Below the pieces are notes generated by a model, which saw nothing but the letters and a program-made list of their open reading frames with translations, searched no databases and had not been told where the DNA came from. From assembly GCA_900696515.1 (NCBI GenBank), contig CAADGK010000099.1:97514-161513 (forward strand): a stretch of 64,000 nt of DNA, read 5' to 3'. The position numbers were made by a program, and so were the translations under genes. Positions 60,866 to 64,000 of this stretch are shown here, one piece after another. The stretch comes from an uncultured Nitrosospira sp. GTDB lineage: Bacteria; Nitrospirota; Nitrospiria; Nitrospirales; Nitrospiraceae. Position 1 is the stretch's first letter; each line of letters starts with the position of its first letter.

Positions 60866-61783
60866 TCAATGGAACGCGCGCTGGCGGGTGGAGGCAAGAT
60901 TCGCTAGGCGGTTATGGAGTGCGCCGAGGTCATCAAGGAGTTCAATCCCCGTATTCTCCAGGAGATGCTCCATCGCACAGGCACCTTTCCCGCCTACGGC
61001 CACATGCCAGCGCTGAGAGAGCGTACGTAATTCATGGAGCAAGTGGTCTGCCTCTTCGTTCGATTTTGATTCCGTCAAGGACAATAGAATCAAGTCTGGA
61101 TGCACCCGATCGCACAACGTCTCCAAATCCGTCAGGGGAAGATTTGGCCCAAGATAATAGACATGACAACCGCGCGAGGCGGCAAGGTACGTCACGGCTT
61201 GAGCGCCGATTTCGTGATACTCGCCTGTGGGACAAGCAATGACCACGCGCGGGCCGAATTCATTGGCCGGCAACTGATTGATCACCGCAAAGAGTTTCTG
61301 TTGAATGATCTTCGTCACGTAATGTTCCACTGCGATATTCACCTGTCCTTCATGCCACAATTCTCCCACCCGGCGTTGTAAGGGAAGAAGAACGCGTTGC
61401 ACGGCTTCTTCGAATGGGATCACGGCGATCGCTGCGTTCAGTTGTAGTTCAAACCGACTCTTGTCAAGCGGATCGAGCCGGGAGATCAGTTCGTCGAGCA
61501 ACGAACTGTGGGGAGCAAGCTCCTGCTGTTTTGGAATTGAGCTTGCCCGCATCCGTTGGAGCAACGAATCTCGCCCTTCCATCGCAAGTCCACCGATGGT
61601 CTGACCGCGATCCAGCTCTTCTTTCAGAAAGCGGAAGAGCGAGACGTCCTCATCACTGTATTCCCGATAGCGATTAGCGCTTCGTGAAGGTTTGACAAGG
61701 CTATATCGACGCTCCCACACCCTGATCACATCCTTTGAGAGCCCCGTCAGTTTCGCAACTCTATGAATTCTATGTTTATTCAT
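60866..61783 (-). CDS. MerR-family regulator with B12-binding domain (CarH/LitR-like)
   Basis: MerR HTH (RVAKLTGLSKDVIRVWERRYSLVKPSRSANRYREYS); W-x9-EH (LWHEGQVNIAVEH); ExHxxG (GEYHEIGA). Confidence 0.9.
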   Translation of the reverse strand: MNKHRIHRVAKLTGLSKDVIRVWERRYSLVKPSRSANRYREYSDEDVSLFRFLKEELDRGQTIGGLAMEGRDSLLQRMRASSIPKQQELAPHSSLLDELISRLDPLDKSRFELQLNAAIAVIPFEEAVQRVLLPLQRRVGELWHEGQVNIAVEHYVTKIIQQKLFAVINQLPANEFGPRVVIACPTGEYHEIGAQAVTYLAASRGCHVYYLGPNLPLTDLETLCDRVHPDLILLSLTESKSNEEADHLLHELRTLSQRWHVAVGGKGACAMEHLLENTGIELLDDLGALHNRLANLASTRQRAFH

Positions 61784-61793
61784 ACGTTGCCAA

Positions 61794-61822
61794 AGCTTAG
61801 ACTATTGTCCAATGTCTGTCAA
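61794..61822 (-). promoter_or_regulatory. Sigma70-like promoter of the MerR/B12 gene
   Basis: Minus strand TTGACA (61822-61817), 17-nt spacer, TAAGCT (61799-61794). Confidence 0.5.
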
Positions 61823-61901
61823 ATATTTTTATACTATAACGCTTGACACATTGGACATTTTAGCTTATACATTAGACATACATGAGTCATACATTAGACA
61901 T
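61805..61901. promoter_or_regulatory. Four-copy ACATTRGACA operator array
   Basis: Inverted copy 61805-61815; direct copies 61848-61858, 61869-61879, 61891-61901 (spacing 21 and 22 bp). Confidence 0.75.
61843..61871 (+). promoter_or_regulatory. Sigma70-like promoter of the zinc-ribbon/SUMF1 operon
   Basis: TTGACA (61843-61848), 17-nt spacer, TATACA (61866-61871). Confidence 0.65.
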
Positions 61902-61920
61902 TTTAAGGAGGGAGGGCATC

Positions 61921-62208
61921 ATGATCATCACCAGTCAGGACATGAGTAGGAGAATTGACGAACTCCACGAGGCTCTCCCTGCGTCTTGTTGCATCTGTAG
62001 TAGATGTGGCGGCCTCATGGTGAGCGAATTTTCTATTGATCTCTGGAGTCCCACAAGCAAGCTAGACGGTGCCCCAAGACGCTGTGTGCAGTGTGGGGAT
62101 GTCATTGACGCGGTCATATTGAGGAATCGACGGATTGGGCTCGTTTCAAACTCGCTTCCATCAACGGCAACACCAGCTTCTTCACTGGGGCCTCAAGCCG
62201 CAGCATAA
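61921..62208 (+). CDS. Small zinc-ribbon protein
   Basis: AAGGAGGGAGGG SD; CCICSRCGGLM...RRCVQCGDVID. Confidence 0.7.
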   Translation: MIITSQDMSRRIDELHEALPASCCICSRCGGLMVSEFSIDLWSPTSKLDGAPRRCVQCGDVIDAVILRNRRIGLVSNSLPSTATPASSLGPQAAA

Positions 62209-62250
62209 AACATTATCGCTGGTTCATCGAGATAACCAAGGAGGGTGCAC

Positions 62251-63219
62251 ATGCGGAGTCAAGCTATCACTCAATTTGCAGTCGGGTTAGTCCTCACGGC
62301 CGGGACCATCACCTTCGCCACAGCAGCAGACCTCCCGCTCGGCGACAAGGACATGGTGCTCATTCCGAAGGGGGAATTCACCATGGGAAGTAATGAGCAT
62401 GGAGACGAAACAAAGCATCAGGTTGTACTCGATCCCTATTGGATCGACAAATATGAAGCCTCCAATGCCCGTTATAAGGAGTTCATGAAGGCCACCAGTC
62501 ATCCCGCACCCGCCTACTGGGATGACCCTCGGCTGAACAAGCAGAACCAGCCGGTCGTCGGAGTGAGCTGGACCGATGCGAACGCCTTCTGCAAATGGGA
62601 CGGGAAGCGTCTGCCAACGGAGGCAGAGTGGGAACGAGCAGCAAGAGGCCCCGACGGGGACAATCACTATCCCTGGGGGCACAAGCTGGATCCGAAGAAG
62701 GCCAACTATGGACAGAACGTGGGTCGCACGATGCCGGTCGACTCGTACCCCGAAGGCGTGAGCGGGTTTGGTGTCTATAACATGGCTGGCAATGTCTTTG
62801 AGTGGGTCGAGGATTGGTACGACCCCTCCTACTATAAACAGAGTCTTGCCCTGAATCCAAAGGGTGCCGACCAGGGCTACAACTACGCGAACCAGGGACC
62901 AGTCAAGGTACTGCGGGGTGGCTCATGGCTTGCCCCAGAAACTTCACTCCATACGAGCCACCGATTCTGGAATCAGCCGGACAACAACTCCTACGGGGTC
63001 GGTCTGGGATTCCGATGCGCGAAATCAGCAGCGACTGTGTCGGCCGAAGCCGTGCAATCGGGACGTGACGCGTTCATCCAGGCCCTCGTCGCGATGGGGG
63101 CTGAAAGGAATGCCGAGGCCTTGGCCGCGATCGAGAAGGCGTTGGCCGAGGACCCGAACAACAAGGAATATCTGGCGACACGTGATTTGCTCAAGAAGAG
63201 CATGAAGAGAAAGAAATAG
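62251..63219 (+). CDS. Secreted SUMF1/FGE-sulfatase-like protein
   Basis: Signal peptide; IPKGEFTMGSNEHGDETKHQVVLDPYWIDKYEASNARYKEF, RLPTEAEWERAARGPDG, GNVFEWVEDWY, GLGFRCA. Confidence 0.92.
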   Translation: MRSQAITQFAVGLVLTAGTITFATAADLPLGDKDMVLIPKGEFTMGSNEHGDETKHQVVLDPYWIDKYEASNARYKEFMKATSHPAPAYWDDPRLNKQNQPVVGVSWTDANAFCKWDGKRLPTEAEWERAARGPDGDNHYPWGHKLDPKKANYGQNVGRTMPVDSYPEGVSGFGVYNMAGNVFEWVEDWYDPSYYKQSLALNPKGADQGYNYANQGPVKVLRGGSWLAPETSLHTSHRFWNQPDNNSYGVGLGFRCAKSAATVSAEAVQSGRDAFIQALVAMGAERNAEALAAIEKALAEDPNNKEYLATRDLLKKSMKRKK

Positions 63220-63287
63220 TCTTACAATCCGCTGGAAGAACCAGGGTGGCGTTCTCGTCCGGCGAATCGATTTCGGTGGAGGATACG

Positions 63288-64000
63288 ATGCGGATAGCTA
63301 AAACAATTATGGGTTTCCTGCTGATGATGGGCTTCATGGCGTCGACTACTACCGCACAAGCAGAGGATTCCTTGATCCCAGCCAATATGGTCTACATCGG
63401 ATATGTCCCGTCGGTGATGGGGCTCGACAAGGAAGCACCGGTAACATCCGGGAATGCTTCTGCCGAATATCAGCAACGCAACAGGACGCCTGCTGGCACT
63501 TTTAACGATGAAAGTCCGGCTCACATGGTGTTTCTGGACCCGTACCTCATTGATAAGTACGAAGTCTCGAACCAGAACTATAGGGACTTCCTCAGGTCGA
63601 CGGGTTATCCCGCCCCTGCCTATTGGGATGATCCTCGCCTCAATCGCCCGGATCAGCCTGTGGTCGGGGTCAGTTGGTACGATGCAAAGACCTACTGTGA
63701 GTACTTAAGCAAGCGACTTCCGACAGAAGCCGAGTGGGAGAAGGCGGCCAGAGGGCCGCACGGCAACCTCTATCCCTGGGGGAATGATTTTGATCCGGCT
63801 AGAGCCAATTTCGGAAAAACTCATGAGGCGACCATGCCGGTCGATTCATATCGGGAAGGGGTCAGCTATTATGGCCTCCACAACATGGCCGGAAACGTCT
63901 TCGAGTGGGTCTCAGATTGGTACGACCCTAAGTTTTACGGCCGGCTGGAACCGATGGTGAATCCCACGGGACCAGCAAAGCCCGTGTGGATTGGGGGCAC
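63288..64000 (+). CDS. Second secreted SUMF1/FGE-like protein, truncated by window end
   Basis: Signal peptide; DPYLIDKYEVSNQNYRDFL, RLPTEAEWEKAARGPHGNLYPWG, GNVFEWVSDWYDP. Confidence 0.9.
   Translation, partial: MRIAKTIMGFLLMMGFMASTTTAQAEDSLIPANMVYIGYVPSVMGLDKEAPVTSGNASAEYQQRNRTPAGTFNDESPAHMVFLDPYLIDKYEVSNQNYRDFLRSTGYPAPAYWDDPRLNRPDQPVVGVSWYDAKTYCEYLSKRLPTEAEWEKAARGPHGNLYPWGNDFDPARANFGKTHEATMPVDSYREGVSYYGLHNMAGNVFEWVSDWYDPKFYGRLEPMVNPTGPAKPVWIGG

Follow-up and report, generated by a model that had tools for sequence, protein, structure and literature searches.

We consider it likely that the gene at 60866-61783 encodes a B12-dependent light-sensing repressor of the CarH/class I LitR type, which would hold down both promoters of the adjacent divergent region and would be released from them by light, with a presumably photoprotective role. 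In the window (the whole 64,000-nucleotide stretch analysed here) this gene adjoins a conserved array of operator-like repeats, on the other side of which begins a cluster with FGE-fold, cytochrome, photolyase and RudS genes. The CarH family is already known; it is the regulon that is unusual here. Light strongly inhibits nitrification by Nitrospira, and the cluster offers a candidate sensor, candidate operators and candidate targets for the light response of these light-sensitive nitrifiers. A literature search that left out most subscription journals returned no paper describing CarH in Nitrospira.

A regulator of the CarH type

As the sequence-only reading had proposed, the regulator falls among the B12-binding MerR proteins. 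Pfam finds a MerR winged helix-turn-helix (MerR_1, 9.5e-13, with the RxWERR recognition motif present as RVWERR at 21), a four-helix B12-binding_2 domain (PF02607) and a Rossmann B12-binding domain (PF02310), both B12 domains scoring above cut-off. Thermus CarH aligns over residues 5-290 (phmmer, E=1.1e-31). The AF2 model has a mean pLDDT of 87, and the best 50 structural matches listed by Foldseek are CarH in every case. Over the full length the rmsd between the model and CarH structures is large, and the B12 domain by itself superposes at ~3 Å; the full-length value is probably due to domain placement.

The photochemical residues are kept. The adenosyl-pocket motif Wx9EH (W143-H144...E153-H154) is conserved in 50/50 homologues, and the lower axial histidine of the ExHxxG motif (E188-x-H190-x-x-G193) is likewise present in all 50. 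Trp143, Glu153, His154 and His190, which correspond to Thermus residues 131, 141, 142 and 177 (numbers obtained by counting along the PDB alignment), are thus without exception in this set, and His144, the equivalent of the upper histidine His132 that serves in the light state, is missing from only one of the 50. A cobalamin adenosyltransferase gene is present in the same genome.

According to PMC9304148, an intact Wx9EH occurs only in CarH and is absent from CarA. Identity with the B12-independent CarA was rejected, the motif being intact in all 50 homologues; class II LitR was rejected because both B12 domains are present, not just one. The best NCBIfam match is NF052513, the CarH equivalog, at 140.4 bits against a cut-off of 400, which is not reached; we therefore call the protein CarH-type, a homologue outside the curated equivalog, and do not claim an ortholog. 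On the sequence features that can be tested, the assignment to the CarH/class I LitR type is supported.

The oligomer interface is another matter. In Thermus CarH we take residues 176 and 201 to be the dimer salt bridge and residues 160 and 192 to be the dimer-dimer glycines, which agrees with the description in PMC9304148. The Arg176-Asp201 bridge is absent from the window protein, which has Tyr/Asn at these positions (position 201 is Asn in 50/50 homologues); Gly160 is replaced by Ala, most of the 50 homologues having Ala or Val, and Gly192 is kept. With the salt bridge missing and one glycine replaced, tetrameric binding is uncertain, and oligomerisation may differ from that of Thermus CarH. 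Since myxobacterial CarH proteins vary at dimer and tetramer interface sites and Cystobacter CarH functions as a dimer (PMC9304148), we do not claim a tetramer.

The divergent promoters and the operator array

The intergenic region had been read as AT-rich and divergent, with three direct copies and one inverted copy of an ACATTRGACAT-type repeat, one of them between the -35 and -10 hexamers of each of two opposite promoters. Each of these features is present (Table 1). The three direct copies are exact, with start-to-start distances of 21 and 22 bp, and both sigma70-like promoters combine TTGACA with a 17-bp spacer; the first base of DR1 is the last base of the operon promoter -35. To this we add the degenerate repeat dr3 and, on the minus strand, an exact 11-bp spacing between the TTGACA unit of the carH promoter and the inverted copy.

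Table 1. Features of the divergent region and the flanking genes (window coordinates)
Feature	Position	Strand	Remarks
CarH-type regulator, 305 aa	60866-61783	-	Pfam, phmmer, motif conservation in 50 proteins, AF2 model and Foldseek
Divergent promoter/operator region	61784-61920		35% G+C
carH promoter -10, TAAGCT	61794-61799	-	Weak, 3/6; TATAAT-like in many relatives
Inverted copy, ACATTGGACAA	61805-61815	-	One mismatch to ACATTRGACAT; in carH promoter spacer
carH promoter -35, TTGACA	61817-61822	-	Itself TnnACA, within 11-bp repeat unit 61826-61816
Operon promoter -35, TTGACA	61843-61848	+	
DR1, ACATTGGACAT	61848-61858	+	In operon promoter spacer
Operon promoter -10, TATACA	61866-61871	+	
DR2, ACATTAGACAT	61869-61879	+	Overlaps operon -10; copy with highest conservation
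dr3, ACATGAGTCAT	61880-61890	+	Degenerate direct repeat; completes 11-bp DR-dr-DR tandem (DR2-dr3-DR4)
DR4, ACATTAGACAT	61891-61901	+	
Ribosome-binding site, AGGAGG	61906-61911	+	For the 61921 ORF
Zinc-ribbon-like protein, 95 aa	61921-62208	+	CxxC pairs; protein cluster in 13/13 loci compared
Secreted FGE/SUMF1-fold protein	62245-63219	+	
Second FGE/SUMF1-fold protein	63246-64000	+	Runs past window end, continues on contig C41 (L092)

When the region was shuffled 300 times with dinucleotides preserved, no shuffle contained four 11-mers related to one another within one mismatch, and the 54 bp of the direct copies hold three of the four exact ACATTRGACAT matches of the whole 4.59-Mb genome. For CarH of Thermus and Bacillus, PMC9304148 describes the repeat nnnnTnnACAn, which occurs three or four times in tandem over a -35 or -10, degenerate "dr" units being tolerated. 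Every intact copy of the array matches this published repeat exactly, DR1 lying one base off register.

Conservation and specificity of the array

That the motif would be conserved in related genomes was borne out in 52 Nitrospiraceae intergenic regions adjoining carH homologues of 49-100% identity: the array is recognisable in 52/52. The related loci all bear the names Nitrospira or Nitrospiraceae. DR2 is intact in 49 loci, DR1 in 42 and DR4 in 37. The DR1-DR2 spacing is 21 bp in 34 of the 42 loci having DR1, and the DR2-DR4 spacing is 22 bp in 31 of 37. A distance of 21 rather than 22 bp places DR1 outside the 11-bp register, which counts against the CarH reading. The inverted copy matches TTGACAAACATTGGACA with 0-2 mismatches in the relatives sampled. 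In an alignment of 32 sequences, repeat positions outside the hexamers are 95% identical, promoter hexamers 98% and other positions 65-68%, so promoter function leaves the conservation of the repeats unexplained. The call of the minus-strand promoter stands despite its weak -10 in the window, because 29/52 related loci have a carH-side -10 of 5/6 or 6/6 at 16-18 bp.

Specificity was obtained only with a profile of the whole array, not with single repeats. Searching the genome for the single repeat gave 74 one-mismatch matches, mostly isolated, against 34 for a reversed-pattern control; an exact match at C11:17707 was rejected as an operator, the neighbouring repeat being absent. The profile of the operon-side array finds only two sites in the genome, with E=4e-18 and 3.7e-7, and each of them belongs to this cluster. 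Thus, the genome-wide search for clustered repeats that the sequence-only reading had suggested yields one operator besides the array described here.

Across 39 genomes of the genus, the operator occurs in 23/23 with a full-length carH and is absent from 15 of the 16 that have no full-length match, a co-occurrence that is in part inherent in the comparison, most of the operators detected being adjacent to carH. The exception (G041) is a genome in which a contig starts inside the gene for the second CarH. Most of the 15 genomes with neither carH nor operator also have no photolyase; full-length photolyase matches were obtained in four, one of them interrupted by an internal stop. In these four, a photolyase-RudS-CbiX group is kept from which the operator and the FGE array are absent (the stretch was checked only for carH relatives, the operator and cluster genes); these genes can therefore do without CarH control.

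The gene cluster

Pfam and NCBIfam searches returned no match for the 95-aa zinc-ribbon-like protein at 61921-62208. The secreted FGE-fold protein at 62245-63219 has only two cysteines, neither of them where FGE has its catalytic pair. The window ends in the next FGE-fold gene, and its positions 63874-64000 are identical to positions 1-127 of locus L092, so that contig C99 at its end and contig C41 at its start overlap exactly over 127 bp. Gene order is the same across this junction in L123, a contiguous relative. Contig C41 is taken to continue the window, judging from the contig-end overlap together with the synteny in L123. The break falls inside an FGE-fold gene, of which there are several alike, and some near relatives likewise have contigs that stop within a few kb of carH.

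On C41 lie FGE-fold genes, among them a fusion of cytochrome c with FGE, as well as a NapC/NirT tetraheme cytochrome and a small metal-binding protein. The contig further holds the second operator, an NmrA/DUF2867 gene, a second zinc-ribbon-like gene, a TIGR01777 oxidoreductase, a PDZ protein, a photolyase and RudS. In most of 12 other loci, carH, the zinc-ribbon gene, FGE-fold genes, the oxidoreductase, photolyase and RudS recur, and a CbiX-family gene is frequent in the cluster of relatives. The photolyase and RudS are known light-response genes, RudS genes being commonly found in light-responsive operons (PMC11417400).

Two protein families are repeated within the cluster. The zinc-ribbon-like CxxC family occurs twice (window 61921-62208 and L092 9137-9439). 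The FGE/SUMF1 fold is multicopy (62245-63219; L092 4891-5853 and 2050-3252), with one copy fused to cytochrome c, and is devoid of the FGE catalytic-pair cysteines. A CbiX-family chelatase gene (L123 17590-18099 and relatives) ends the photolyase-RudS group and is kept in carH-less genomes too; its position may possibly link the light response to tetrapyrrole/cobalt chemistry.

An ammonia monooxygenase subunit gene (G000:C26:40399-41106, 329 bits) makes it likely that the genome is that of a comammox Nitrospira, which oxidises ammonia fully to nitrate, an assignment that is not certain because assembly contamination is 2.4%.

Proposed mechanism and alternatives

Judging by family membership, repression would take place in the dark with AdoB12, when the CarH-type protein would bind the array at 61805-61901. 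On the carH side its own promoter would be covered from the -35 through the spacer to the -10 (DR-DR-dr, an 11-bp tandem), and on the operon side the spacer, -10 and start region would be covered (DR1, a 10-bp gap, then DR2-dr3-DR4), so that both promoters would be repressed. Light would cleave the Co-C bond of the bound AdoB12 and release the protein, again by analogy with the family, and the operon would then be transcribed, giving the zinc-ribbon protein, the secreted FGE-fold proteins, the c-type cytochromes and the small metal-binding protein.

The main alternative is that the regulator senses the supply of AdoB12 (a corrinoid) and not light, with repression when it is plentiful and induction when it is scarce. 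CarH requires AdoB12 for DNA binding (PMC9304148), Nitrospira marina requires exogenous B12 (PMC8115632), and several relatives carry the CbiX-family chelatase gene in the cluster. We nevertheless regard supply sensing as unlikely: the conserved cargo of photolyase and RudS suits light, the light-state histidine is kept almost throughout the homologues, and none of the cluster genes was recognised as a B12 transporter. The same histidine, along with the other photochemical residues, argues against a CarH-fold B12-binding regulator that has no direct light release of its own and is relieved by a partner, in the manner of CarA/CarS or of class II LitR and a short LOV protein. Anti-repressors of this type are known for relatives (PMC9304148, PMC9758184), and the diverged oligomer interface would fit them; the cluster has no recognised CarS or LOV gene, though neither was the object of a specific search, and we hold relief by a partner to be quite improbable.

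The array bears on the other two alternatives. It might serve another regulator, its position beside carH being accidental; in our opinion this is very improbable, since operator and carH travel together across genomes and the repeats match the consensus for CarH. A classical MerR-type activator would distort a promoter with a long spacer, and the protein does have a MerR DNA-binding domain, with one site lying within the spacer. MerR-activated promoters have spacers of 19-20 bp. Both spacers here are 17 bp, the optimal length, and the sites are direct repeats over the -35, -10 and start rather than a single dyad in the spacer; because of these features repression is favoured over activation, and classical MerR activation, rejected on spacer length, appears extremely improbable.

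Comparison with known systems

The CarH-type repressor of the window resembles CarH of Thermus thermophilus (PDB 5c8d/5c8e) in domain order, in Wx9EH, in the lower axial histidine and His132, and in the WERR recognition helix. It differs in overall sequence (29-30% identity in the structural alignment) and at the interface residues discussed above. The Thermus operator likewise consists of TnnACA direct repeats, and there, as on the carH side in the window, the -35 falls within one of the units; the operon-side operator of the window is longer and contains the 10-bp gap. The CarH/CarA operators at the myxobacterial Pcrt (PMC9304148) are similar mixed arrays of 11-bp DR and dr units, ~55 bp long and overlapping promoter elements. 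Unlike at Pcrt, the array here spans the -10 and the start, with the -35 upstream of it, and in place of carotenoid synthesis its predicted targets are the FGE-fold and cytochrome genes together with photolyase and RudS.

In content, the predicted regulon is like that of Pseudomonas class II LitR (PplR1/PmlR2; PMC9758184, PMC11417400), where a light-inducible operon that includes photolyase and RudS is under repression. The regulators are unlike: of the two B12 domains class II LitR is missing one, a LOV protein relieves its repression, and its site is TGTACA-N12-TGTACA. If the present reading is true, B12 light control reaches FGE-fold and cytochrome genes.

The second operator and the second carH

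The second operator lies 4.8 kb into contig C41, upstream of the NmrA/DUF2867, TIGR01777 oxidoreductase, PDZ, photolyase and RudS genes. It is partly degenerate and weaker (32.5 against 67.6 bits for the first), and control there may therefore be fading in this genome. In several relatives it is adjoined by a second carH, about half identical to the first, which is intact in L124, L126, L129 and L172, has decayed (to a pseudogene or a mere remnant) in L123, L168, L169 and L170, and was not found in the genome of the window (L092) or in L166 and L173. Since the operator survives beside a decayed or missing gene, the first CarH is likely its ligand, and binding in trans by the remaining protein would probably bring the genes downstream under the same control.

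A broader interpretation is tentative, and we think it somewhat doubtful as a whole: a CarH lineage of its own in the nitrifying Nitrospiraceae, whose oligomer interface has been rebuilt and whose array is partly out of register, might place periplasmic electron-transfer parts (the NapC/NirT tetraheme cytochrome, the cytochrome c-FGE fusion and the FGE-fold proteins) under light control, and repeated loss of the second carH might have left its operator to the first. If this were true, illumination would reshape respiration, besides DNA repair, in comammox and nitrite-oxidising bacteria.

The state of the second carH varies among the loci. In L123 (8485-8948), and also in L168, L169 and L170, the remnant has stops or missing stretches and the adjacent operator is kept. 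At the other extreme, L172 (G153:C53, 909-8934) carries three carH copies with no internal stops, together with three operators, within ~8 kb.
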